Source: an uncultured Amylibacter sp. (lineage in GTDB: Bacteria > Pseudomonadota > Alphaproteobacteria > Rhodobacterales > Rhodobacteraceae). From it: a stretch of 54,526 nt of DNA. Positions 1-53,404 of the stretch are shown here, one piece after another (within the stretch, counting starts at the first letter, position 1; each line of letters starts with the position of its first letter). Made by a program: the position numbers and the translations under genes. Where the stretch lies: NCBI GenBank assembly GCA_905182285.1, contig CAJJAY010000009.1, positions 1 to 54,526 on the forward strand, written 5' to 3'. The notes beneath the pieces were generated by a model, which was given only the letters and a program-made list of their open reading frames with translations, made no database searches and had not been told where the DNA came from.

Positions 1-147
1 CCCTGCTGCATGCCAAGATGAACCACTTGTTAATTCAGATCTTTCAATAAGGACAATGTCTTTCCAACCAGCTTTAGCTAAGTGAAACAATACAGAGCAG
101 CCAACTACTCCTCCTCCAATAACTACAACTTTAGCATGAGTAATCAT
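1..147 (-). CDS. FAD-dependent oxidoreductase, dimethylglycine/sarcosine dehydrogenase-like, N-terminal fragment
   Basis: This is the first 49 codons of a gene that continues past the left edge of the window; the ATG is at 147 on the minus strand. The translation begins [19 protein letters not shown] and continues to an acidic residue (IERSE) and a [10 protein letters not shown] segment. The GxGxxG dinucleotide fold followed by SGSSWHAAG is characteristic of the DAO-fold flavoproteins related to dimethylglycine and sarcosine dehydrogenases, in which the His near the SSWHAAG motif is typically the covalent FAD site. Family members oxidatively demethylate N-methylglycines and often carry a C-terminal GcvT-like folate domain, which would lie outside this window. 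The substrate cannot be decided from 49 residues. Confidence 0.8.
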
Positions 148-223
148 CAGTTAATACTTTCCAGATATTAATTTATTAGTAATAAAAATTAAAATGAGTT
201 TAAAGATATCTGCATGTACATTA

Positions 224-240
224 ACGACATAAGATGTCGT
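224..240 (-). terminator. Short hairpin downstream of rfbA
   Basis: A perfect 7-bp inverted repeat, ACGACAT/ATGTCGT with a 3-nt loop, lies 8 nt beyond the rfbA stop codon. There is no strong T-tract on the minus strand, so it is a weak terminator or an RNA 3'-end stabiliser for the rfb operon rather than a classic intrinsic terminator. Confidence 0.35.
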
Positions 241-248
241 AACCTAAA

Positions 249-1118
249 TCAATCTATAGCTTTTAAATAATCACCATAAGCATTCTTAGAAAATTTTTCT
301 GAACGAATTTTGAGCTCTGATTTTGATATCCAATCATTTTCAAACGCTACAATATCAGGACTCCCAATTTGTAAGCCTTGGCGCTTTTGTAGTGTTTTAA
401 CAAAATTACCTGCATCTAATAAGCTTTCGTGTGTGCCAGTATCTAACCAAGCATAACCACGGTTCATCTTATTTATTGTAAGAGAATTATCATTTAAATA
501 ACTATTCAAAAGAGATGTTATTTCTAACTCTCCACGCTTTGAAGGCTTAAGGGCTTTTGCTCTCTTGGGCGCTGTCTCATCCAAGAAATATAAACCAACA
601 ACAGCATAATTCGATGGAGGTATTTTTGGTTTCTCAATAATTGATATTACATTATTGCTTTTATCAAATTCTACGACTCCATATCTTTCTGGATCTGAAA
701 CATGATATCCAAAAATACTTGCCCCAAAATCACTGTCATTTGCCTGCTTCAACAAATCACGAATTCCATCCCCATGAAATATGTTATCCCCTAATATTAG
801 TGCTGATTTGGATCCATTTAGAAAATCTTCAGCAAGAATAAATGCTTGCGCAAGTCCTTCAGGTTTTGGCTGAACTATAAAAGTAAGAGAAATGCCCCAT
901 TGAGAGCCATCACCTAATAATTCCATATATTGATTCTTATCATTTGGAGTTGTTATGATTGCAATTTCGCGTATTCCAGAAAGCATCAATATACTCAAAG
1001 GATAATAAACCATTGGCTTATCATATATTGGCAAAAGCTGTTTAGAGATCCCCATAGTAATAGGATATAGGCGTGTTCCGGTTCCACCTGCTAAAAGAAT
1101 ACCTTTACGTTTTTCCAT
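249..1118 (-). CDS. rfbA: Glucose-1-phosphate thymidylyltransferase
   Basis: The enzyme makes dTDP-glucose from dTTP and glucose 1-phosphate, the first step of dTDP-L-rhamnose synthesis in the cytoplasm. The 289-aa length is normal for RmlA. The nucleotide-binding signature GGTGTRLYPIT is near residue 11, KQLLPIYDKPMVYYP follows, and the metal-site LGDNIFHG and sugar-binding IIEKPKIPPSNYAVVGLY regions are present. It is the last gene of a minus-strand rfbC-rfbB-rfbD-rfbA operon and starts 8 bp after rfbD. An AGGAAT sequence sits just upstream of the ATG as ribosome-binding site. Nothing looks degraded. Confidence 0.96.
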   Translation of the reverse strand: MEKRKGILLAGGTGTRLYPITMGISKQLLPIYDKPMVYYPLSILMLSGIREIAIITTPNDKNQYMELLGDGSQWGISLTFIVQPKPEGLAQAFILAEDFLNGSKSALILGDNIFHGDGIRDLLKQANDSDFGASIFGYHVSDPERYGVVEFDKSNNVISIIEKPKIPPSNYAVVGLYFLDETAPKRAKALKPSKRGELEITSLLNSYLNDNSLTINKMNRGYAWLDTGTHESLLDAGNFVKTLQKRQGLQIGSPDIVAFENDWISKSELKIRSEKFSKNAYGDYLKAID

Positions 1119-1126
1119 TATAATTC

Positions 1127-1969
1127 CTATTTTAAATCTTCAAGTACAGTTGATAAGCTTTTACGCCAGTCAGGTTGTTTTATGCCATAATCTTTTTCTA
1201 AAGATGTACAATCTAAACGAGAGTTTAATGGTCGTTTTGCTCTTGTTAAAAAATCTTTAGACAAAATATGATTAATTTTTATTTTATTTTCTGTTTGAGA
1301 GAAAATTTCTGATGCAAATTCTGCCCAAGAAGAATTCGGCTTTCCCGAAAAATGATATATACCAGTTTTACCATTTCCTGCATAAAAATCAGATGCTATT
1401 TTCCAAAGTGTATCTGCGATATCTTTTGACCATGTTGGTCCGCCAATTTGATCTTTAACAATGCTTAGTTCTTGATTGTTTGAAGCAAGGCGCAACATGG
1501 TTTTAACAAAATTATTTCCATGAGACGAAAACACCCAAGATGTTCTTAAAATTACATATGGCCCAGCTGCTGCAATAACACCTTGCTCACCAATTAATTT
1601 AGACCGCCCATAAGTGTTTTGAGGGTTTGTCGCATCACCAATTTTCCAATTTAAATTCCCATTACCCTTAAATACATAATCAGTGGAAATATGTAAGAAT
1701 GGAATATCACGCTTTGCAGCAAGTTGCGCTATTTCAGTAACTGTAGTTCCATTAATTATATTGGCCAAGCGTACGTTATCTTCAGCCTGATCTACTGCAG
1801 TATATGCAACTGTATTTATTATTATATCTGCATCTGTAGATTGTATTATTTCAAGTACCTTTTTGTGATCTGTAAAATCAGCTGTATTTCGATCAATTGC
1901 CGTAACATTAGGTCTATCACAAAGCTCCCTAGCGACCTGCCCTGTTTTACCAAATAAAAGAACTTTCAT
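1127..1969 (-). CDS. rfbD: dTDP-4-dehydrorhamnose reductase
   Basis: NAD(P)H-dependent reductase for the last step of dTDP-L-rhamnose synthesis. It is an extended SDR with the N-terminal MKVLLFGKTGQVAREL dinucleotide-binding motif, ISTDYVFKG and the catalytic YGRSK (YxxxK) motif. The open frame extends 12 codons further upstream, into rfbB, but the family normally begins exactly at MKVLLFGKTGQ, so I place the start at 1969. This gives 280 aa and a 1-bp gap after the rfbB stop. It is part of the rfb operon and looks intact. Confidence 0.94.
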   Translation of the reverse strand: MKVLLFGKTGQVARELCDRPNVTAIDRNTADFTDHKKVLEIIQSTDADIIINTVAYTAVDQAEDNVRLANIINGTTVTEIAQLAAKRDIPFLHISTDYVFKGNGNLNWKIGDATNPQNTYGRSKLIGEQGVIAAAGPYVILRTSWVFSSHGNNFVKTMLRLASNNQELSIVKDQIGGPTWSKDIADTLWKIASDFYAGNGKTGIYHFSGKPNSSWAEFASEIFSQTENKIKINHILSKDFLTRAKRPLNSRLDCTSLEKDYGIKQPDWRKSLSTVLEDLK

Positions 1970-1970
1970 C

Positions 1971-3008
1971 TTATATTTTACCAAGCCGAGACCCGACACC
2001 TTCACGATCTTGCAAAGCTTTCCACCAGTCTTTATTTTCTAAATACCACAATACAGTTTTTCTTAGACCTTCATCTAGGGTTACTGATGGCTTCCAATTT
2101 AGTTCATTTATAATTCTTGAAGGATCGATTGCATATCTTTGATCATGGCCTGGTCGATCAGTTACAAATGTTATTTGATCTGCATATGGTGTTTTTTGAG
2201 GTTGTAAATTATCAAGAAGCACACAAATCTTTTGTACTAATTCTAAATTAGTCGCTTCATTTTTACCTCCAATATTATATGATCGCCCAATCTCACCATC
2301 CTTAATAACACTTAATAAAGCGTCTGCATGATCTTCAACATAAAGCCAATCACGGATATTATCTCCTGTGCCGTAAATTGGTATTTTCTCACCCGAAATA
2401 GCTTTTATAATTACAACAGGAATGAGTTTTTCTGGAAAATGAAATGGCCCATAATTATTCGAGCAATTAGTTAAAACAATAGGTAAACCATATGTTTCAT
2501 GCCAAGCGCGTACTAAATGATCAGATGATGCTTTAGAAGCAGAATAGGGGGATTTTGGATCATATGGAGTCTTTTCTGTAAACAACCCGGTTGCCCCTAA
2601 TGAGCCATAGACCTCATCTGTGGAAATATGGTGAAATCTAAAGCTTTCTGGCTGGCCCTCTTTTTTCCAAAAATGACGGGATGCTTCTAATATTTCATAT
2701 GTTCCAATAATATTTGTATAAATAAAAGTAGAGGGCGCATCTATGGATCTATCAACATGACTTTCTGCAGCTAAATGCATTATAGCATCTGGTTTAAATC
2801 TATTAAAACAATCAATTAAATCATCACGGTTGCACACATCAATTTTTTCAAAACTATAATTAGGATGATCACAAATTGAATCAAGACTTTCAAGACATGC
2901 CGCATAAGTCAATTTATCAATATTTTTTATAGTATGGCCTTCTTTGATAGCTTTTCTGACAACAGCTGATCCAATAAATCCAGCCCCGCCTGTAATTAAG
3001 ATTCTCAT
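1971..3008 (-). CDS. rfbB: dTDP-glucose 4,6-dehydratase
   Basis: NAD-dependent extended SDR that converts dTDP-glucose to dTDP-4-keto-6-deoxyglucose. The 345-aa length fits the family. Visible motifs are [16 protein letters not shown] at the N-terminus, [23 protein letters not shown], and the catalytic [10 protein letters not shown] (YxxxK). [14 protein letters not shown] near residue 285 is a strong RmlB signature. It overlaps the end of rfbC by 4 bp (ATGA type) and is followed directly by rfbD, so translation is probably coupled. Confidence 0.96.
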
Positions 3009-3574
3009 ATTTTATTCTCAAAAATAAAAGGGCTTTTAAAATCTTTAAATAAAGTGAGGTTTTTATCTTTTTGAGACAAGGTTATATTTGATGAATTTAT
3101 TCCCCAATTAACATTTAAATCTGGATCATTGTATTTTATGCCAGCCTCATGAATGGGAGAATAAAAATCAGAACATTTATAAAGTATTTCTGTATTATCT
3201 TCTAGAGTAATAAATCCATGTAAAAAACCCTTTGGAATTAATAATTGTTTACCATTTACTTTAGATAATAATATTGAAAACCATTCACCATATGTTGGAG
3301 AGCCATTTCTTATATCTACAACTACATCTGTAATACTTCCACTTAATACTCTTATTAATTTGTCCTGTGCAGCTGGTGGAGATTGAAAATGTAATCCCCG
3401 AACGGTATGCTTTGGTATTGATAGAGAATGATTGTCTTGTACAAATCGTATTCCTTTGGAAACAGCGTCTAAATGATTTTGATTCCAGGTTTCGCTAAAC
3501 CAACCACGATCATCCTCGAAACGTTTTGGCTCTATTATAAACACATCTTCTAATTTTGTTTTTTTACAGTACAT
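3005..3574 (-). CDS. rfbC: dTDP-4-dehydrorhamnose 3,5-epimerase
   Basis: Cupin-fold epimerase of the dTDP-L-rhamnose pathway, 189 aa, a normal length. Recognisable segments are [19 protein letters not shown], the substrate/catalytic region [19 protein letters not shown], and [16 protein letters not shown]. It is the first gene of the four-gene rfb operon, so the operon promoter should lie in the 86 bp between it and the enolase-superfamily gene. The C-terminal tail (after about residue 165) is Lys/Phe-rich and less conserved. The product supports rhamnose in a surface polysaccharide (inference). Confidence 0.94.
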
Positions 3575-3660: not shown

Positions 3661-4890
3661 TCAATCTACCGCCCCACCAGAAAATGCATTTCCATTTTTA
3701 TAATCGCAGGGAGCATTTTGCATTTCTAAATGTAGTTTATTTTCAACATATTTATTACTTCGTGCAATATTTTCATCAAATTCAATACCAAGACCAGCAG
3801 ATGTAGGGGCAATAATATATCCATCGTCCCATTGTATTTTATTTTTGATAAGTTCCCCAGAAAAACCACCTCCTGTTAAAATGGTTTCAGCCATTAAAAT
3901 ATTGGGGATGTTAACTGCTAATTGAATATTAGCTGCCCACTCAACTGGGCCAGCATATAAATGGGGTGCGATATGAGCATTATATACTTCAGCAATGGCT
4001 GCTATTTTTTTTGTCTCAAGTATACCTCCTGCGCGCCCAAGGGCTGGTTGTAGAATGCTTGCTGCTCCTTCCTTTAATACCTGCGCAAATTCATTTTTAG
4101 TACTTAAGCGTTCACCAGTGGCAACTGGTATACGTATTGAATTTGCAACTTTTGCCATTGATGAAACATTATCTGGTGGAACTGGCTCTTCGTACCAGAG
4201 TGGATCATAAGGCTCTAATGCTCGGCCTAACCGAATAGCACCAGCTGTTGAAAATTGACCATGAGTTCCAAATAATAAGTCAGCTTTCGTGCCAACAGCA
4301 TCTCGAATTGCTGCACACATTTTAACTGATAAATCGATATCAGTCATAGCAGGCATGTGGCCACCACGCACAGTATAAGGTCCTGCAGGATCAAATTTTA
4401 TTGCGGTGAACCCTATATTTACCATTGCTAAAGCAGACTCAGCTTGCATGTCAGGAGAAACCCAAAATTTTTCATTATCATGATGATCCATGGGATAAAG
4501 ATATGTATATGATCTTATTCGATCATTTATTTTTCCGCCTAAGAGGGCATAAACAGGCCTATCATGGGCTTTTCCTAAAATATCCCAACAAGCAATTTCT
4601 AATCCTGAAAATGCACCGATTACACTCAAATCAGGTCGTTGAGTGAACCCTGAAGAATAAGCACGACGAAACATCAATTCTACATTTTCAGGATTTTCGT
4701 TCATCATATGACGTTCAAAAACATCGTTAATTATATTTTCCATGGCCTTAGGGCCAACGGATGCTGAATAAATTTCACCATATCCGGTAATGCCATTATC
4801 GGTTGTTAATTTAACGAAGATAAAATAGCGGCCACCCCAGCCTGGTGGAGGATTTTTGACAATAAAAATTTCTAAATCTTTTAGTTTCAT
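3661..4890 (-). CDS. Enolase-superfamily (mandelate racemase/galactonate dehydratase-like) protein with altered active site
   Basis: The closest family I recognise is the sugar-acid dehydratases of the mandelate-racemase subgroup (DgoD-like), 409 aa. Aligning by eye to DgoD keeps the spacing exactly: G208 stands where the first metal ligand Asp should be (motif GTHGQ), H210 matches the DgoD His, E234 (YEEP) and E260 (TGER) are the two Glu ligands, and H310 (APHLY) is the strand-7 His. A283 (QPALGRAGG) replaces the Asp of the His-Asp dyad. Two canonical acidic residues are therefore missing. It is the last gene of the five-gene operon facing the RdhA-like gene, 39 bp after the DUF3726 gene. 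It may be a subfamily with a different chemistry or an acid-sugar dehydratase with rearranged ligands; the substrate is unknown. Confidence 0.85.
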   Translation of the reverse strand: MKLKDLEIFIVKNPPPGWGGRYFIFVKLTTDNGITGYGEIYSASVGPKAMENIINDVFERHMMNENPENVELMFRRAYSSGFTQRPDLSVIGAFSGLEIACWDILGKAHDRPVYALLGGKINDRIRSYTYLYPMDHHDNEKFWVSPDMQAESALAMVNIGFTAIKFDPAGPYTVRGGHMPAMTDIDLSVKMCAAIRDAVGTKADLLFGTHGQFSTAGAIRLGRALEPYDPLWYEEPVPPDNVSSMAKVANSIRIPVATGERLSTKNEFAQVLKEGAASILQPALGRAGGILETKKIAAIAEVYNAHIAPHLYAGPVEWAANIQLAVNIPNILMAETILTGGGFSGELIKNKIQWDDGYIIAPTSAGLGIEFDENIARSNKYVENKLHLEMQNAPCDYKNGNAFSGGAVD

Positions 4891-4929
4891 AAAAGTATTG
4901 AAGCACCTTTTATGAAAAAAAACAATTGT

Positions 4930-5343
4930 TTATCCGGCTCCACGTAAGCGAGATTCTTCGCTATCTGGAACATATGTTCGGTGAGCAAATTGTTTTATAA
5001 TTTCAGGTGCGTCATTAGGAAATTTAGGTTTTCTAATACTTAAATCACCACAAAGTGATTGAAAGATATAATGGCCTATTACTTCTCTATTACCTGCATT
5101 CTTTTTAGAGTCAGCGTAAAATGTGCCCAACGTTAACCCACACGGAACTAATATACTGGTATCTAATGGTTGTTTTTCTCCATCAGCATTTTTTAATATA
5201 GGTATCAATTCTTCGAAACCATCATACCCCAACCTATAAAGTTTGAGTGTTGCCATTGCAGCTTCTTCGGCCATTCCCCAAGAAAATCCAGCTCCACGGG
5301 TTGCTTTTTTTGCGTACGCAGTAATTTCAGATTCTGTTAACAA
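4930..5343 (-). CDS. DUF3726 family protein
   Basis: A 137-aa protein of the DUF3726 type, recognised from the N-terminal pattern LTESEITAYAKKATRGAG followed by FSWGMAEEAA. The family has no assigned biochemical function that I know of. I chose the TTG at 5343 because a GGAG ribosome-binding site lies 7 nt upstream and the family starts close to this point; a longer frame exists to another TTG at 5364. The chosen start overlaps the end of the 552-aa gene by 7 bp, so translation is probably coupled. Two Cys (in VPCGLTLG and SLCGDL) could matter. There is no signal peptide and no membrane segment. Its job in the cluster is unknown. Confidence 0.75.
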   Translation of the reverse strand: MLTESEITAYAKKATRGAGFSWGMAEEAAMATLKLYRLGYDGFEELIPILKNADGEKQPLDTSILVPCGLTLGTFYADSKKNAGNREVIGHYIFQSLCGDLSIRKPKFPNDAPEIIKQFAHRTYVPDSEESRLRGAG

Positions 5344-6995
5344 GCTTGGACTCCATAAGACCAATTATCTTCATCTGTTAACTCATTAGGAAATGGTGCA
5401 TCTTTAAACATACATATTCTTACCCATCTATCTGACCTTGGGTCAAATTTAGTAGCTCCAAAAAATGATAACTTACAACGCAACATATCAATTGGTAGCA
5501 TTTTACTATTTAGTAAGTTGTCGCGTATTTCTGAGTATGGAAATTTTTCACTCAACTGTATTCGTCTAACGATATGACGATGTGCAGGATGTGATAGTAA
5601 GTATTCAGCTAAAATTTGGTTACTTGTCAAATTTGAATATAATAATGAAATATCTCGCGCAATAGCTAAAGGTTGTTCAAGCTCAGAACCGTTTTCTTCA
5701 AAGCGTTCACCCAATCGGGGTTCAAGCTTTGACTCAGAAACGTACCAAAATCTTGCCTGATTTTTTTTTGTAGAATAATCGGTATCAAGAGCCCAAGCGT
5801 AATTAGTTTCAATTTGTTTTTTTAATTCGTCTGTTGTTTTAGTAGCATCTATTTTGAAATATTTAGCTTCATCAATATACATGCAGTCAGATAATTCATC
5901 TACTAGCTCAGAATAAGGTTCAAACAATGTTGAAACAATTTGTTCTTGTGTATCTTCTCCAACCGTATCCTTTGACCAAAGATAAAGAATATCCCAAGGA
6001 TAGTTTGCTTTGTCTAAGGTTTCAAATTTTAAAAGTGTCTTAGATAATTCGTTGCGAAGTTTTTCTATTTTAGGTTTTTGAATATTATGCTGACTTTTCC
6101 AATTCTGAGCGTTTTTTAAAGCGTTTGTTAGATGTCCTCGCATTTTATCAAATGTTACGTCTGGAACATCTTTTATGGCCCTTACACGTGCAAGGGCAGT
6201 TTCCCTTGCGTAAATCCACGTACTTAAAAGAGCGGGGTGATTAACTAAAAATGGTGCCATTCCCAATCCTGTTGAATTCCCAATCCCCATAGATCTACGT
6301 AATTCTGGATCTAATTTTACTGCACTATCCTTGCCTTTTTTAAATGCAACATGTTCTACTAAATCCATAACAAAGCATCTTATTAAATATACAGTTAACA
6401 TTTCTGCTTGAAACGGAGTGCGCATTTCTTTCCTATCGGAAATTTTTACTCTGTCAGATGCACCAAATTTACCAGATCCGTAAACAGCAGTCGTGCGCAT
6501 CAAATAGCCAACCTCATTTAGCTTCTTTAAGTCAGGCTGTTTTCCAGATGCTAAAGAATTCACAACATAATCCCATAATCTTACGGATCTGTTTGCTCTG
6601 GAAAGAGTAAGTTCACTTGTAGATATTCTACCAGCTTCTTGAAAGGGAACATTATTTTTAAGTCTAATAATATCCGCATCTGAGGGTACGCCATCATGTA
6701 GAGTAAATGTGCAATCCCAAGCTTCTGCAATTACGCGGTCAGATCGTGCTTCAGCAGGTAAGTCATGTGCAAAAGCTACTAATGAATAGCTGCGTTTTGG
6801 GCCATGGACACTATACACTGCGTGTCCAAAACCATCGTTATCTATATTCCAGTCTGGTTTATCAAATTGCCAATTTTCTGAAGCTAAACGACGTAATAAG
6901 ACACGCATAAAACTAATGCGGGATAGATGAAGGCTTCCCAGTCGAGATAATTTCATTACCTCTTCAGGCTCTCGTAGTTTTACTTGGGGTATCAT
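5337..6995 (-). CDS. Conserved-looking protein of unknown function, 552 aa
   Basis: I do not recognise this family. The product is a soluble, charged protein with no signal peptide and no obvious transmembrane segment. Notable pieces are an early DGFGHAVYSVHG segment (residues 54-65), AFAHDLPAEARSDRVIAEAWD (about 75-94), and a glycine-rich loop GIGNSTGLGMAPFLVNHP (237-254) followed by a Trp-Ile-Tyr helix. A charged, probably helical region covers about 290-330. The codon and base use match the neighbours. It overlaps the upstream M19 gene by 4 bp (ATGA) and the downstream DUF3726 gene by 7 bp, so it is made together with both and probably acts with them. Confidence 0.8.
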   Translation of the reverse strand: MIPQVKLREPEEVMKLSRLGSLHLSRISFMRVLLRRLASENWQFDKPDWNIDNDGFGHAVYSVHGPKRSYSLVAFAHDLPAEARSDRVIAEAWDCTFTLHDGVPSDADIIRLKNNVPFQEAGRISTSELTLSRANRSVRLWDYVVNSLASGKQPDLKKLNEVGYLMRTTAVYGSGKFGASDRVKISDRKEMRTPFQAEMLTVYLIRCFVMDLVEHVAFKKGKDSAVKLDPELRRSMGIGNSTGLGMAPFLVNHPALLSTWIYARETALARVRAIKDVPDVTFDKMRGHLTNALKNAQNWKSQHNIQKPKIEKLRNELSKTLLKFETLDKANYPWDILYLWSKDTVGEDTQEQIVSTLFEPYSELVDELSDCMYIDEAKYFKIDATKTTDELKKQIETNYAWALDTDYSTKKNQARFWYVSESKLEPRLGERFEENGSELEQPLAIARDISLLYSNLTSNQILAEYLLSHPAHRHIVRRIQLSEKFPYSEIRDNLLNSKMLPIDMLRCKLSFFGATKFDPRSDRWVRICMFKDAPFPNELTDEDNWSYGVQAC

Positions 6996-7975
6996 TTCAT
7001 ATCACCAAAGCTGTTATCAAAGAATTTTAACCAATTATTTCCCATAACTTTTGTTATTTCTGTTTTAGACATACCTATTATATTTAGCCCATTTGCAATA
7101 TTTGAAAAGTCCCTATTATCTTTGTACCACGAAGGCATAGGAGGAAATCCAGCATTTGATACAGATCCCTCACCAAAATCTATACCCTTTGTCCAGCGGC
7201 CAACCCTCATCCATTCAACAATACTATCTGGTTGATTTTGACACAAATCAGTTCCTATACCAATATTATCAATTCCCATAATATTAGCCGTATTAGCAAT
7301 CATTTCGCAGAAACTAGAAATAGTACAATCTGTTCCATTTTTTAGATGATGAGGATAGATGGAGAAGCCTAACATTCCACCTGAGTCAGCCAATTCTCGC
7401 ATGACTGTTGTTGATTTATTTCTAAGTGCTGCATGCCAATTGTGGGGATTGGCGTGGGTAATAGCTATTGGCCGCTGAGAATGCTCAATGGCATCTAGCG
7501 TAGATTTTTCTCCGGAATGACTCATATCAACAACCATACCAACACGATTCATTTCTGTGACAACTTCGCGCCCCATTCTAGTAAGTCCAGAATCATAACT
7601 TTCATAACAGCCTGTGGCTAATAAAGATTGGTTATTATATGTTAGCTGCATAAAACGTGCGCCAAGTTGATATAAAATTTGTACTAGTCCAATATCATCT
7701 TCAATTGGTGAAGGGTTTTGAAAGCCAAAGAAAATTGCTGTTCTATTTGTCTCTCTGGCTAAGCGAACATCATCTCCTGAGTTTCCATGAAATATTAAAT
7801 TTGGGAACATTTCGAACCAACGGTTCCATTGTTCCATATTTAAAATAGTTTCTCTAAAAGTCTCATGATAAGCTATGGTGACATGCACTGCATCAAGGCC
7901 ACCTTCTCTCATTTCCTTAAAAACGCTTTCAGACCAATTTGCATATTGCAAACAATCAATATGATAATTTGTCAT
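6992..7975 (-). CDS. Membrane-dipeptidase-like (peptidase M19) protein with Glu-to-Gln change
   Basis: Amidohydrolase-fold protein of the M19 (renal dipeptidase) family, 327 aa. The expected metal ligands H5 and D7 (NYHID, very close to the N-terminus), H153 (DMSH), H174 (ITHAN) and D243 (GIGTD) are present. The segment GFQNPSPIEDDIGLVQILYQLG aligns without gaps to the human IEGGHS...LYQLG segment, and the bridging metal ligand Glu is Gln at position 86. Dipeptide hydrolysis is therefore doubtful. There is no signal peptide, so it is cytoplasmic. It overlaps the Ldh-family gene and the 552-aa gene by 4 bp each. It may hydrolyse an amide or a lactone-like intermediate of the cluster's pathway (inference). 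Confidence 0.85.
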   Translation of the reverse strand: MTNYHIDCLQYANWSESVFKEMREGGLDAVHVTIAYHETFRETILNMEQWNRWFEMFPNLIFHGNSGDDVRLARETNRTAIFFGFQNPSPIEDDIGLVQILYQLGARFMQLTYNNQSLLATGCYESYDSGLTRMGREVVTEMNRVGMVVDMSHSGEKSTLDAIEHSQRPIAITHANPHNWHAALRNKSTTVMRELADSGGMLGFSIYPHHLKNGTDCTISSFCEMIANTANIMGIDNIGIGTDLCQNQPDSIVEWMRVGRWTKGIDFGEGSVSNAGFPPMPSWYKDNRDFSNIANGLNIIGMSKTEITKVMGNNWLKFFDNSFGDMK

Positions 7976-8970
7976 TTTGTTGGGCCTTTTGAAAGTTTAT
8001 TTAATTGATCGAGAATTTTTCTTTCGATTTTAACAAATTCTGGCATAATAAAATTTGAGCCAGGTAATCTTGTTCCTTCTTGTTCAGCAACTGCGTTAAT
8101 AATTCTGTCAATACGATCAAAAAAAGAATTCCCATGTGTGTTTGGGTCCAGAATTAAATAACATTGACCCAAATTATGAGGTTTTCCTTCTGGAAGTTTT
8201 AATCCTTTAACATCTAATGAATTTACAGAACCTGTGAAAGCAGCTGCCAAAACCTCTGTCATCAACCCAAAACCCCAACCCTTGTAGTCACCAGAAGACT
8301 TTAAGGATCCTTTAAGTGCTTTGTTTGGATCAGTTGTGTCATTTCCATTGCTATCAACAGCCCAACCTAATGGAATTGCTTCTCCAGCTGAAGCAGCCAT
8401 TGTTATTTTACCTAATGCAATTGCGGAAGTGCTTTGGTCAAATTGAAAAGCAATGTCACCATTCTTTGAAGGTATTGCCATTGCAATTGGATTTGTTCCT
8501 AATATAGCTTTATTGCCACCTGGAGGAGAGACAACAGCACTCGCATTAGTAAAGCCAATACCAATAAAGCCAGATTTAGCAATTTGTTCAGTAAAATATC
8601 CTAGAGATGTGCATGTATGAGAATGAGAAATTGCCAAAGAGCATGTGCCAGTTTTTACAGCTGTTTCTATTGTTAAAGGCATTGCGCGCTCAAAAGCTGC
8701 TTGAGCAAAACCAAATTTCGCATCAACATGAATAGATGCAGCTTTTGGTAGGGTTACAATTGGCTCAACTGTGCCATTTACTCTTCCAGTAATTAATTGA
8801 CTACAATAGCTTTCTAAATAGTATAAACCGCATATTAAATTACCTTTAGCCTCTGCTGTTCTAACCGCCCTTGCTACTGATTTAGCTATCCAAACCGAAG
8901 CACCATGGCTTGTTAAGGCTTTTTCTGTTAAAGCCTCAACCTCAGATAAATTAACTTCTATTTTTTCCAT
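7972..8970 (-). CDS. Malate/L-lactate dehydrogenase (Ldh) family oxidoreductase
   Basis: A 332-aa NAD(P)-dependent dehydrogenase of the family that includes ureidoglycolate, 2,3-diketogulonate and sulfolactate dehydrogenases; it is unrelated to classical Rossmann LDH. The typical segments are SHSHTCTSLGYFTEQIAKSG, GFTNASAVVSPPGG, LGTNPIAMAIP and KGWGFGLMTEVLAAAFTG. It is the first gene of the five-gene minus-strand operon; a candidate promoter lies at 9018-9046. It would oxidise a 2-hydroxy acid or reduce a 2-keto acid in the pathway; the substrate is unknown. Its start ATG follows an AAGG sequence 12 nt upstream, a rather distant ribosome-binding site. Confidence 0.88.
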   Translation of the reverse strand: MEKIEVNLSEVEALTEKALTSHGASVWIAKSVARAVRTAEAKGNLICGLYYLESYCSQLITGRVNGTVEPIVTLPKAASIHVDAKFGFAQAAFERAMPLTIETAVKTGTCSLAISHSHTCTSLGYFTEQIAKSGFIGIGFTNASAVVSPPGGNKAILGTNPIAMAIPSKNGDIAFQFDQSTSAIALGKITMAASAGEAIPLGWAVDSNGNDTTDPNKALKGSLKSSGDYKGWGFGLMTEVLAAAFTGSVNSLDVKGLKLPEGKPHNLGQCYLILDPNTHGNSFFDRIDRIINAVAEQEGTRLPGSNFIMPEFVKIERKILDQLNKLSKGPTK

Positions 8971-9017
8971 TAAAGTATTTTGCCTTAAATAAAATTTTAT
9001 GTCTTCAAAAAAACGAC

Positions 9018-9046
9018 ATCGTAATGAGAGAAATCGAACGTATCAA
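9018..9046 (-). promoter_or_regulatory. Candidate sigma-70 promoter for the five-gene operon
   Basis: On the minus strand TTGATA (9041-9046) is followed after exactly 17 nt by TACGAT (9018-9023), upstream of the Ldh-family gene. It lies in the 114-bp region shared with the divergent RdhA-like gene, so the two transcription units could be co-regulated. No clear operator palindrome was seen. Confidence 0.4.
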
Positions 9047-9084
9047 TATAGCCTTTCTAAATTAATTTTGTTTAAAGTAACACA

Positions 9085-12000
9085 ATGACCAGATTTTTTT
9101 CAGAAAAAAACAGATTACCTCATTTAGGTCCATATCCAATGGAGCGATTAAAACGCAATACTGGGCCAATTGAAAAAGTTCCTGAAATGAAAGCAATAAA
9201 CTTTAATTGTGAGAAAAAGCCTCATTCAATAATAAATTCAATGCGAGACTATCAAGCAATGATGGATGCATTACGAATTGGTTTAATTAATAAAGGCCGC
9301 TGCAATATTCCAAGTGATTTAAATGAACGTTCAAACCATTTAAAATCTTTTGCTTATTTCCAAGACTGTTCTGTCGTAGGAATTACTAAAATTGACACTG
9401 ATTGCCATCTTAAAATGCCTATTCATAATCCAGATATTGAAAGACTATCTGAGGATTTGCGTACAAAACAAACTAAAACCTTTGCAGCTGGTATGGACGT
9501 ATTAATGGCAGAATTGCGCGAAGCAGTAGATGCGCCCAATTCTGGAGTACTTGACCATTCACATGCTATTACTTTTATATATGAATACCCAAGAGACCCT
9601 TTATCAGATGAGATAGGGTGTGAATGGATTCAAAATGCACAATTAGAACGTTCAACGCTTTTAGGAACAGAAACAGCTAATGTAATATCTAATTATATTA
9701 GATTGCTTGGTTATGATGCGCGATCACACTCAGCATCATGTAGTGATGTAGACCTAAATCGTCTTGCAGTATTGTCAGGTTTGGCAACAGTAGAGAATGG
9801 AGTTCTTTCAAATCCATATATTGGAAAGCGCTTTGGTATTACTGCCGTAACAACAAATTTAGAATTAAGTATAGATTTACCATTAGCAAAATATAGAGAT
9901 CAACCAAAGGCATACACACATGGTATTAAGTGGATTGTTGGCAAAGGTTTATCTAAAAATAAATTTAATCGAGAGCCATATAAAAAGCGCCGTTTTGTCG
10001 ATGGTGCAATGCCTTTTGAGAAAATAAAAAGGACTGAAAATCCCACTACATATTTGGATGAAAAAAACATTCCTCGCGTACCAAAACGAACTGATTTATT
10101 TGCTCGAGCACAATTTGGAGATCTTGGAAAAGCAGTTGAGAATGGTTCTAGAAATGGATTTTATGTTCGCAAAACAGCACCGTCTATGGCGCAAAGAAAG
10201 CCAATGAGTGCATTTGTTTTATTGCAAAATAAACCACCAAATGAGAAAATATCAAATACAGCTCTTGATGCAGCAAGAAATGCAGAAAATATAAAAGCTG
10301 CATGCTACTTTTTAGGAATTGATGCAGTAGGAATTTCTCGATGCCCTGACTGGGCTTATTATTCACATGATGCCGCTGGCGAAGAGATAATTCCAACACA
10401 GAATCAAGCAATTTCTATGATTGTAGATCAACGTTTTGATACAATGGATGGATCTTCTGGTGATGATTGGATTTCAGTTGCTTTATCAATGCGTGCATAT
10501 TTGCGGTTTTCTTTATTAGGTGGAGTTATAGCTGAGCATATACGTTCTTTAGGTTATGAAGCAAAAGCTCATACAGCTACTGATAGTGATGTAATACACC
10601 CACCATTGCTTTTACTATCAGGTCTTGGAGAGGTTAGTCGAATTGGTGAAGTAATATTAAATCCATATTTAGGACCTAGATTAAAGTCTGGAATAGTGAC
10701 TACAAATATGCCTATGGCACATGATAAACCTATTGATTTTGGTATGCAAAAATTTTGTGAAAGTTGTAATAAGTGTGCCCGTGAGTGCCCTGCTGGCGCA
10801 ATTACTGCGGGCCCAAAAAAAATGTTTAATGGTTATGAAATTTGGAAATCAGATAGTCAGCGTTGTGCCACTTATCGAATAACAACGGCAGCAGGTGCAA
10901 TGTGTGGAAGGTGTATGAAAACATGCCCATGGAATCTAGAGGGCTTATTTTCAGAGAAGCCTTTCCGCTGGATTGCAACAAACATTCCCAGTGCGGCACC
11001 TTTTTTAGCAAAATTAGACGATTGGGTCGGTAACGGTGAACGCAACATAATAAAAAAATGGTGGTGGGATTTAGAAATACAAGCTGATGAAGGCTATCGC
11101 CCAACTACCAACGGTACAAATGAAAGAAACTTACAAAAAAAACTTAGAGTAAATTATGCGGATCAAACTTTAGCTGTTTATCCTGCAGATCAGGCCCCAC
11201 ATCCTTACCCATTCCCTTTTCCTATTGATAGAGAGGCGGGAATAAAAGCGTATTCAAAAATGTTAGATGTGGATGAATATAAGAAACGTTTAGCTAATGG
11301 TAATACAAAAGATTTATTTCATCGTTATTCTATAAAGAAAAATATAGATATATTACATTTAGAAATTATAAAAATTGAAAGATCAGCCACTGATATAATA
11401 GAATATAGTTTTTCATTACCTTCAAATAAAGATCTTCCACTTTGGATTGCTGGAGCACATATTGACGTTGTGGTTGCTCCAGGGTTTATCCGGCAATATT
11501 CATTAACTGGAAACCCATCTAACCGAAAAATATATCAAATTGCAGTTCTCCGTGAAGAAAATGGAACAGGAGGATCAGTTTTGATGCATAAAATTTTTAC
11601 ACTAGGCCGTAAAATTTTTATTTCGCATCCAATCAACCATTTTTCATTAAAAAAGAACCCTTTAAAAACCTTTCTTATTGGTGGGGGTATTGGAATAACG
11701 CCACTTATTTCGATGGCACATGAATTATACACAAAAAACCAAGACTTTATACTTTGTTATTGTGCTTCAAGTAAAAATAAGGCTGCATTATTAAAACACC
11801 TTTCAAATGTTCCTTGGAAAGAAAAAATACTTTTCTTTTTTTCTGATGAGGGTGCGCGAGCAAGCTTTAATAACATATATGATAGTTATGAAAATGGGTA
11901 TCATACTTTTATTTGTGGTCCTGATAAGTTTATGGTTGCTGTAAAAGAAAGTGCAAAATTTAAGGGTTTCCCTGACAACGCTATAAATTTTGAATATTTC

Positions 12001-12297
12001 ACACCTCCAGAAACTACTGATTACAAAAATTATAAATTTAAAGTTAAATTATTGAAGTCAAATAAGGAATTTGATATTAAGTCAGATCAGACAGTAACAG
12101 ATGTATTGTTGGAAAATGGCATTCATGTAGATATGAAATGTACAAATGGTATATGTGGTGTTTGCCGCTGTGGGTTGATTGCTGGTGATGTAGAACATAG
12201 AGATTTTGTGCTATCTGACAAACAGCGGGAAGATACAATTATCCTTTGTCAATCTAGAGCTTTAGATGCAAATGGTATAATTGAAATTGACCTTTGA
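9085..12297 (+). CDS. Fused reductive-dehalogenase-like corrinoid/iron-sulfur protein with C-terminal FNR and 2Fe-2S domains
   Basis: A 1070-aa multidomain protein. Residues about 390-620 form an RdhA-type core: FLGIDAVGIS, a YYSHD segment that could hold the proton-donor Tyr, LRFSLLGG, SGLGEV, NPYLGPR and VTTN. It ends in two ferredoxin motifs that match the RdhA consensus: CX2CX2CX3CP (C558, C561, C564, C568) and CX12CX2CX3CP (C594, C607, C610, C614). Residues about 196-266 repeat the core pattern (YIRLLGYDARSH, SGLATV, NPYIGKR, VTTN) without cysteines, so the corrinoid-fold half is duplicated. Residues about 750-960 are an FAD/NAD reductase (RQYSLTGNP; GGGIGITP), and 985-1070 a plant-type ferredoxin (C1019, C1024, C1027, C1055). 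There is no Tat signal and no RdhB-like anchor gene, so it is cytoplasmic and catabolic rather than respiratory. Fusions of this order are known from aerobic dehalogenases such as BhbA; the substrate here is unknown. Confidence 0.88.
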   Translation: MTRFFSEKNRLPHLGPYPMERLKRNTGPIEKVPEMKAINFNCEKKPHSIINSMRDYQAMMDALRIGLINKGRCNIPSDLNERSNHLKSFAYFQDCSVVGITKIDTDCHLKMPIHNPDIERLSEDLRTKQTKTFAAGMDVLMAELREAVDAPNSGVLDHSHAITFIYEYPRDPLSDEIGCEWIQNAQLERSTLLGTETANVISNYIRLLGYDARSHSASCSDVDLNRLAVLSGLATVENGVLSNPYIGKRFGITAVTTNLELSIDLPLAKYRDQPKAYTHGIKWIVGKGLSKNKFNREPYKKRRFVDGAMPFEKIKRTENPTTYLDEKNIPRVPKRTDLFARAQFGDLGKAVENGSRNGFYVRKTAPSMAQRKPMSAFVLLQNKPPNEKISNTALDAARNAENIKAACYFLGIDAVGISRCPDWAYYSHDAAGEEIIPTQNQAISMIVDQRFDTMDGSSGDDWISVALSMRAYLRFSLLGGVIAEHIRSLGYEAKAHTATDSDVIHPPLLLLSGLGEVSRIGEVILNPYLGPRLKSGIVTTNMPMAHDKPIDFGMQKFCESCNKCARECPAGAITAGPKKMFNGYEIWKSDSQRCATYRITTAAGAMCGRCMKTCPWNLEGLFSEKPFRWIATNIPSAAPFLAKLDDWVGNGERNIIKKWWWDLEIQADEGYRPTTNGTNERNLQKKLRVNYADQTLAVYPADQAPHPYPFPFPIDREAGIKAYSKMLDVDEYKKRLANGNTKDLFHRYSIKKNIDILHLEIIKIERSATDIIEYSFSLPSNKDLPLWIAGAHIDVVVAPGFIRQYSLTGNPSNRKIYQIAVLREENGTGGSVLMHKIFTLGRKIFISHPINHFSLKKNPLKTFLIGGGIGITPLISMAHELYTKNQDFILCYCASSKNKAALLKHLSNVPWKEKILFFFSDEGARASFNNIYDSYENGYHTFICGPDKFMVAVKESAKFKGFPDNAINFEYFTPPETTDYKNYKFKVKLLKSNKEFDIKSDQTVTDVLLENGIHVDMKCTNGICGVCRCGLIAGDVEHRDFVLSDKQREDTIILCQSRALDANGIIEIDL

Positions 12298-52396: not shown

Positions 52397-53404
52397 TTAT
52401 AATCCAGCTTTGATTTTTGCAGCAGCGTCTGCAGAAACCCAAGATGTCCATAAGTCTTCATGCTGAGATAGGAATTCAATAGCTGCATCTTCGCCGCCAG
52501 CCTGCTCTTCACCCATGTATACTAACATAGCATTCATAATCGGGCCTGGGTAAGTGCGTGCTTCTAAATACTCAACAGCAATGCCACCTTTAGTTTTCAT
52601 TTTATCAGTGATAACTGTATGTACTTCTGATACTGTCCATGCACTTGGTTTTGGATCAGCACAATCTTGCTCTGCTAAAGCAACACAACCATCCCAGTTA
52701 TCACTGCCTGCAAAAGGTACACCCCAATCCATTGGAACTAGACCGTATTTTCCAACCATTGCTGTTGGAGACCAATAGTAGCCAAACCAATTTTCACCAC
52801 GATCACCAGCTTTAGCAATTGAACCGTCTAAACCAGCAGCTGAGCCTGGATCTACAAGTGTCCAACCCTTTGCTTCCATATCAAATGCTCTAAAAAGGTT
52901 TGCGTTTGCCAATTGGCAACCCCAACCCGCTGGGCATCCAACAAAAGCACCTTTGCTTGAATCTTCTGCGTCTGGGAACAGGTCTGGACGCTCTAAGATT
53001 TTTACAACTGTATCTAGCTCAGGATGAGCTGCTTGAAATGCTGGAGTAACCCACCAACCTTCACCTAGTTGAGTGATTGGTCCATCGTTTGTTGAGTGTA
53101 ATCTTCCCTCTGCCATTGCAGCATTTAAAGTATCACGAAATGCGTTAACCCATAATTCTGGAGCAACATCTGGTTGGCCTTTTTCATTCATAGATGCAAA
53201 TGACGTCATTGTTGCACCTGGAACTAGCTCCACGTTACATCCATAACCATTTTCTAGAATGATTTTATCAACATTTGCCATTAATTCAGCTGATGCCCAG
53301 TTCATTTCTGCAATTTGCACATCACCACAATCAGCAAATGCAGCTGTTCCAGCTGTCGCAAGTGTTGCTGCGATTGCTAATTTAGTAAAAGTTTTTTTAA
53401 TCAT
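52397..53404 (-). CDS. proX: Glycine betaine/proline-type ABC transporter, substrate-binding protein
   Basis: Periplasmic binding protein of 335 aa with a clear Sec signal peptide (IKKTFTKLAIAATLATAG, cleavage after AAFA at about residue 24). The mature part has DVQIAEMNWASAELMANV, QPDVAPELWVNAF, GEGWWVTPAF, and ENWFGYYWSPTAM, the aromatic-rich pattern of betaine-binding proteins. Six or more Cys in the mature protein (for example CPAGWGC) could form disulfides. A GGGAG ribosome-binding site precedes the ATG. It is the first gene of the transporter operon. Confidence 0.9.
   Translation of the reverse strand: MIKKTFTKLAIAATLATAGTAAFADCGDVQIAEMNWASAELMANVDKIILENGYGCNVELVPGATMTSFASMNEKGQPDVAPELWVNAFRDTLNAAMAEGRLHSTNDGPITQLGEGWWVTPAFQAAHPELDTVVKILERPDLFPDAEDSSKGAFVGCPAGWGCQLANANLFRAFDMEAKGWTLVDPGSAAGLDGSIAKAGDRGENWFGYYWSPTAMVGKYGLVPMDWGVPFAGSDNWDGCVALAEQDCADPKPSAWTVSEVHTVITDKMKTKGGIAVEYLEARTYPGPIMNAMLVYMGEEQAGGEDAAIEFLSQHEDLWTSWVSADAAAKIKAGL

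Follow-up and report, generated by a model that had tools for sequence, protein, structure and literature searches.

A predicted self-sufficient reductive dehalogenase and a probable betaine-type catabolic operon lie back to back in a marine Amylibacter lineage

The window analysed here, a 54,526-nucleotide stretch of the genome of an uncultured Amylibacter sp., probably carries two independent catabolic units lying back to back, namely a gene for a reductive dehalogenase (rdhA) and a four-gene operon of betaine type with homarine as the best substrate candidate, together with an unrelated third gene of the enolase superfamily. The dehalogenase and the operon look like neighbours by location and not like parts of one six-gene pathway, as the original prediction had it. 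Among marine Rhodobacteraceae, such a dehalogenase is nothing unusual. The operon gives a context to two families whose function is unknown, namely U552, for which no solved relative was found, and DUF3726, which is likely a shortened Ldh_2 fold, and its M19, U552 and DUF3726 genes offer a testable core of what would be a system for betaine-type catabolism in bacteria of the ocean.

All six genes are real and intact, and purifying selection acts on them. The open reading frame (ORF) list, Pfam and NCBIfam agree on the positions and families that had been claimed for them (Table 1), and the coordinates confirm both the 114-bp divergent region and the tight packing of the minus-strand genes, which overlap by 4, 4 and 28 bases and leave a single gap of 39 bases, before the enolase gene. 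Against HTCC2255, dN/dS is 0.04–0.14 and dS 1.05–1.69 for all six genes; against UBA7416 (L136) dS is saturated, so that pair gives no dN/dS ratio. The genome to which the window belongs (G000) is a 1.9-Mb draft in 56 contigs, 84% complete, and among the matches listed the nearest named relatives of its U552 are those of HTCC2255 (82% identity), two metagenome-assembled genomes (MAGs; 75–76%) and UBA7416 (70%), on which grounds the organism is taken for a streamlined, HTCC2255-like representative of the marine Rhodobacterales. After the enolase gene, at positions 249–3574, the window holds a set of genes identified by eye as those for dTDP-rhamnose (rfb), as does UBA7416; at that place no such set was found in HTCC2255 or in locus L138, which marks a synteny break point.

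Table 1. Positions of the genes and intergenic features in the window
Feature	Position	Strand	Length and basis
Enolase-superfamily (MR_MLE) dehydratase-like gene	3661..4890	-	409 aa; ORF list, Pfam, NCBIfam
DUF3726 protein	4930..5364	-	144 aa, TTG start; Pfam DUF3726 52.8 bits, cut-off 22.1
U552	5337..6995	-	552 aa; nothing above threshold in Pfam or NCBIfam, no solved fold found
Peptidase M19 / amidohydrolase-like enzyme	6992..7975	-	327 aa; Pfam Peptidase_M19, closest structure 2i5g
Ldh_2-family NAD(P)-dependent reductase/dehydrogenase	7972..8970	-	332 aa; Pfam Ldh_2, closest structure 1wtj, 3uoe tied
Divergent intergenic region, operon / rdhA	8971..9084		114 bases in the window
Conserved block CGACA-N8-AGAGAAATCG	9014..9036	+	Middle of the divergent region; alignment of five lineage members
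rdhA	9085..12297	+	1070 aa; TIGR02486, 4ras and 2pia matches

The independence of the two units is seen in their distribution across the order, for which 149 genomes were sampled and U552 was divided, for this order only, into type A (at least 52% identity) and type B (at most 50%). Full-length RdhA relatives (49–60% identity) are found in 90 of these genomes, the window's own included, U552 type A in 67, type B in 30, and RdhA together with type A in 49. Among those 49, RdhA and type A lie within 20 kb of each other in the window only; the next-nearest pair is 71 kb apart, and one pair of RdhA and type B is separated by 17 kb. None of the 60 RdhA- or U552-centred neighbourhoods fetched, of 14–20 kb, contains both genes, and RdhA is absent from the flanks of 76 of 80 named U552 loci, these being the best 80 of 576 confirmed, with flanks of up to 7 kb, some of them cut by contig ends. 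These counts speak against the single six-gene pathway, and they are the outcome that the original prediction had itself named as its refutation. The remaining four of the best 80 loci, all HTCC2255-like, hold the six-gene block with RdhA and the enolase gene in the same order, with nadA/nadB after RdhA.

Among the genomes seen, the gene order, whose conservation across distant strains had been put forward as a check, is kept solely in HTCC2255-like ones (HTCC2255, UBA7416 and two other MAGs; 70–89% identity, DUF3726 62–78%). The window and HTCC2255 are collinear over about 50 kb, in which 43 consecutive window ORFs of at least 120 aa, from the enolase gene to position 53404, keep their order, so the six-gene block is part of a conserved chromosome arm and carries no special linkage. 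For the four rfb genes before the enolase gene and one ORF after the collinear stretch, the 80 kb of HTCC2255 fetched showed no counterpart. The expected co-occurrence of the families holds in part: with kinship uncorrected, RdhA and U552 type A are found together in the 149 genomes slightly more often than by chance (odds ratio 2.7, p 0.004), and RdhA and U552 of either type with an odds ratio of 6.3 (p 4e-7).

The enolase gene is unrelated to both units; in this lineage it has ended up behind the operon, directly downstream of it in all five members. It is set apart by its 39-base separation and by its different genomic context in relatives. Matches to it occur in 123 of the 149 genomes, and among the 64 that have both this gene and U552 type A the two are within 20 kb in the window alone; in seven other genomes they are 45–63 kb apart. 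Twelve neighbourhoods of the gene, with families named from one representative each, contain an alcohol dehydrogenase family (9/12), an MFS transporter (9/12) and tmpA/tmpB (3/12), and the closest structures, 3t4w, 3rcy and 4j3z, have no function named. Of the five-gene operon proposed earlier, four genes stand as a real and widely conserved catabolic module, and the enolase gene, whose genomic context in relatives is another, does not. In loci L276, L277 and L280, the enolase orthologue adjoins tmpA/tmpB-like (trimethylaminoethylphosphonate) genes, and one other genome (G097) has a relative of the gene, 52% identical, at a distance of 11 kb from RdhA.

Judged by its sequence, RdhA is a self-sufficient dehalogenase of the BhbA/JtRdhA type, which is already known. 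It matches NCBIfam TIGR02486 with 197.5 bits, above the cut-off of 160.35, and the NpRdhA structure 4ras with an E-value of 4e-150, and its full-length identity is 44.1% to BhbA and 59% to TM1040. In frame at its C-terminus follows an FMN/NAD/2Fe-2S reductase resembling phthalate dioxygenase reductase (2pia match at residues 756–1066, Fer2 at 991–1059). Y472, K534, R598 and eight 4Fe-4S cysteines are invariant in all 34 sequences of an alignment made of 29 fetched loci, the window, BhbA, TM1040 and two lineage members; in the 2Fe-2S region, four of five cysteines are invariant and the fifth is kept in 32 of the 34. From the work on NpRdhA, we take Tyr472, Lys534 and Arg598 to be residues of the substrate site and the eight cysteines to form the two 4Fe-4S motifs. 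A CobS homologue, the member of the cobalamin pathway that was looked at, is present in all seven genomes searched, including G000. The domain and residue matches bear out the earlier claim of a self-sufficient dehalogenase, an RdhA-like fusion, in a marine lineage. The neighbours of RdhA vary, no other family being found near it in more than three of the 29 loci compared.

Among characterised proteins, JtRdhA of the moderately thermophilic marine bacterium Jhaorihella thermophila has the same architecture, as have other Rhodobacteraceae RdhAs, in that an RdhA part is joined to a C-terminus like phthalate dioxygenase reductase (PMC10463259). According to that report, JtRdhA is driven by NADPH and converts brominated and iodinated phenols whether or not air is present, the catabolic RdhAs characterised by then all prefer ortho-halophenols, fused RdhAs require no redox partner, and the tree of RdhAs includes Ruegeria pomeroyi DSS-3 (PMC10463259). 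A separate Roseobacter debrominase loses its activity in oxygen, as another report states (PMC13101508). The architecture shared with JtRdhA, together with the match to BhbA, places the window's RdhA in this already known type, and its product would be a reductive dehalogenase that is complete in itself, depends on cobalamin, draws on NAD(P)H and works alone. Its most likely reaction is the removal of bromine or iodine in ortho position from phenolic compounds. BhbA, encoded on plasmid pBHB of Comamonas sp. 7D-2, resembles it over its full length and keeps the Tyr/Lys/Arg residues, but bhbA adjoins genes for a tripartite transporter binding protein and a transhydrogenase in a transposon-rich region of the plasmid, with no Ldh/M19 operon.

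The other unit, the operon, is a cut-down form of a catabolic system that is itself widespread. In the same 80 loci, the best of 576 confirmed ones, in which contig ends lower the gene counts, U552 and DUF3726 are found together in every case, M19 in 76 (in one of them as a weak match on the opposite strand), an aldehyde dehydrogenase (ALDH) in 57 (in two as a weak match, at 30–39%), LysR in 47, Ldh in 25, RidA in 16, and two kinds of BCCT transporters in 18 and 15. M19, U552 and DUF3726 are adjacent on one strand in the window. An annotated Phaeobacter record has the order LysR/ALDH/M19/U552/DUF3726; Aminobacter and Pararhizobium have the operon plus Ldh and a glycine-betaine-type ABC transporter, Sulfitobacter and another Phaeobacter have it with a BCCT transporter, and in a 1.4-Mb alphaproteobacterial genome ProW/ProV-like genes stand directly before ALDH/M19/U552/DUF3726, with the Ldh gene divergent. 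Betaine/choline-type transporters are thus found beside the operon in named or streamlined genomes. Across the class, U552 occurs in 53 of 385 genomes, four of which are 1.2–1.4 Mb in size.

The plasmids of Phaeobacter inhibens (pPGA1_262), Aminobacter and Pararhizobium share the M19-U552-DUF3726 core with the window, their U552 being 47–57% identical. Their operons include ALDH and LysR, whereas that of the window has neither; on the Aminobacter and Pararhizobium plasmids Ldh comes after DUF3726 and a ProU-type transporter is present, whereas in the window Ldh comes first and there is no transporter. The ALDHs fit best, below the cut-offs, to models of 2,5-dioxovalerate or alpha-ketoglutarate semialdehyde dehydrogenase. 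The best solved match of the window's M19 is the amidohydrolase 2i5g, and that of its Ldh is the delta1-piperideine-2-carboxylate reductase 1wtj. The match to this reductase makes the hydroxy-acid oxidation first suggested for Ldh doubtful, although the unnamed dehydrogenase 3uoe is tied with it. Plasmid pPGA1_262 has two places that match U552, and on it the LysR/ALDH/M19/U552/DUF3726 operon has DMSP demethylation genes as its immediate neighbours (L122 14873–18497); DMSP demethylase-like genes lie near U552 in the streamlined genomes L233 (below cut-off) and L235 as well.

U552 matches nothing above the cut-off in Pfam and nothing in NCBIfam up to an E-value of 0.1, and its predicted shape, in which residues 36–272 and 273–545 make up two parts, found no counterpart among solved structures in the fold searches run. 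Among the matches listed, it occurs in Rhodobacterales, SAR116, streamlined Alphaproteobacteria (1.2–1.4 Mb) and MAGs labelled Gammaproteobacteria and Acidimicrobiales. A relative at 31% is encoded on a plasmid of the haloarchaeon Natrinema versiforme (L127 9001–11621) with ALDH and BCCT genes; the protein that follows it has a weak Ldh_2 match, below cut-off. DUF3726 counts 144 residues in the window, mostly 200–223 in 79 relatives and 240 in the longest, and the model of a longer relative shows the Ldh_2 fold with much of the family length missing, so that DUF3726 is likely a shortened Ldh_2 fold. Compared with the Ldh_2 family (malate/L-lactate dehydrogenase type 2; 1wtj, 3uoe, 4fjs), whose NAD(P)-binding catalytic proteins have about 330 residues, DUF3726 is some 110–140 residues shorter, and about 190 in the window; it is therefore not a full-length protein of this kind, and a large part of the fold is missing. 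U552 and DUF3726 may be a new kind of enzyme pair that jointly opens or dearomatises an N-methylated heterocycle such as homarine or a relative, a proposal that is advanced with considerable doubt. In type B loci (L072, L079, L081, L102, L106, L114), a second U552 paralogue, about 45–50% identical, has a DUF3726-like gene of its own, and in several of them it lies near a truA-like gene, named by eye, and two other recurring families. The Alloyangia and Neorhizobium plasmids (L129, L130) carry U552 relatives at 30–33% in an operon of IclR, U552, a protein of 230–240 aa, M19, an ABC transporter and RidA.

By analogy with these matches, the operon probably breaks down a nitrogen-containing algal osmolyte. 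The betaine-type transporters, the ALDH models and the best matches of Ldh and M19 point to a zwitterionic substrate, a quaternary or, more probably, a cyclic N-methyl compound. Homarine (N-methylpicolinate) is tentatively named as the best candidate, at somewhat less than even confidence, since it agrees with the chemistry, in which a C5 semialdehyde, an amide step and an imine step occur, and with the distribution of the published homarine operon. Ferrer-Gonzalez et al., in Nat Microbiol in 2026, reportedly described a six-gene homarine operon, homABCDER, with N-methylglutamate as product, in Rhodobacterales, SAR11 and SAR116; the U552 operon resembles it in taxon range (Rhodobacterales, SAR116 and alphaproteobacterial genomes of 1.2–1.4 Mb). 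According to a 2026 paper, homarine catabolism involves N-methylglutamate dehydrogenase (PMC13390433), and diatoms are reported to contain homarine as an osmolyte (PMC9723723, PMC9038784). Should homarine or a comparable osmolyte of algae prove to be the substrate, the genes of the operon would track its turnover in the sea.

In the proposed scheme, Ldh-M19-U552-DUF3726 would be the reduced version of a widespread operon of LysR, ALDH, M19, U552, DUF3726, Ldh and a BCCT or ProU transporter. U552, with DUF3726 as its Ldh_2-like partner, would act on the ring, the Ldh-family enzyme would reduce a cyclic imine or iminium, and M19 would hydrolyse an amide, for example an N-formyl group. The semialdehyde dehydrogenase would then supply the C1/glutamate pathway with a product of N-methylglutamate type; the specific ALDH gene, not found here, is perhaps replaced by a general one. 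When a GXGXG proxy stands in for the N-methylglutamate genes, their link with U552 is only weak (odds ratio 3.0, p 0.006, kinship uncorrected). A 4.1-kb contig of the window's genome (G000:C35, L289, positions 3–3507) holds mgsABC-like genes and the start of a gmaS-type synthetase, named by eye.

The divergent region between the operon and rdhA measures 114–115 bp in all five lineage members, and its central block, CGACA-N8-AGAGAAATCG, is kept in all five, with one mismatch in one, while the flanks diverge; the genome has a single exact site for it and three sites with 2 mismatches, whereas the reversed pattern, used as control, gives 12. Such a shared region, the gene order of HTCC2255, UBA7416 and the two MAGs, and the slight co-occurrence of RdhA and U552 would suit one pathway in which RdhA removes the halogen from a brominated acid or amide, leaving the five-gene operon to process what remains. 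This is very unlikely: the order lies within 43 collinear ORFs and is thus no selective evidence, RdhA and U552 type A lie within 20 kb of each other in one genome of 49, the enolase gene is normally elsewhere, and, as reported with JtRdhA, the catabolic RdhAs that have been characterised take ortho-halophenols as substrates, those of fused type working without a redox partner (PMC10463259). It is also unlikely, if less so, that streamlining in this lineage put both units under one divergent promoter, which would give co-expression without common chemistry, for example in phytoplankton blooms. The conserved block with its one exact genomic site and the lack of a LysR gene beside the window operon favour this shared regulation, but the block, known from five sequences, could be the promoter or operator of just one gene.

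The preferred reading, of an independent betaine-type operon next to a dehalogenase, has a further competitor, in which the operon changed its substrate in this lineage. A specific 2,5-dioxovalerate-like ALDH was not found in any of the five HTCC2255-like genomes at an E-value of 1e-90, nor in genomes G142 and G008; it is present at 72–74% in the other four genomes tested, and the best ALDH of G000, which is 84% complete, is 33% identical. Ten Ldh proteins were compared with that of the window, of which two from the same genus are 69–70% identical, one other 56% and seven 34–40%, the last being also the range of the Ldh of canonical operons. With no specific ALDH found in the lineage at this threshold, the pathway may have changed substrate, and an Ldh of another subfamily and an enolase-type dehydratase, encoded directly downstream in all five lineage members, would then serve a sugar-acid or hydroxy-acid amide pathway. 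That such a switch took place is improbable, for the enolase gene is found across the order without U552, M19 and DUF3726, and these three are still homologous in order and constrained.
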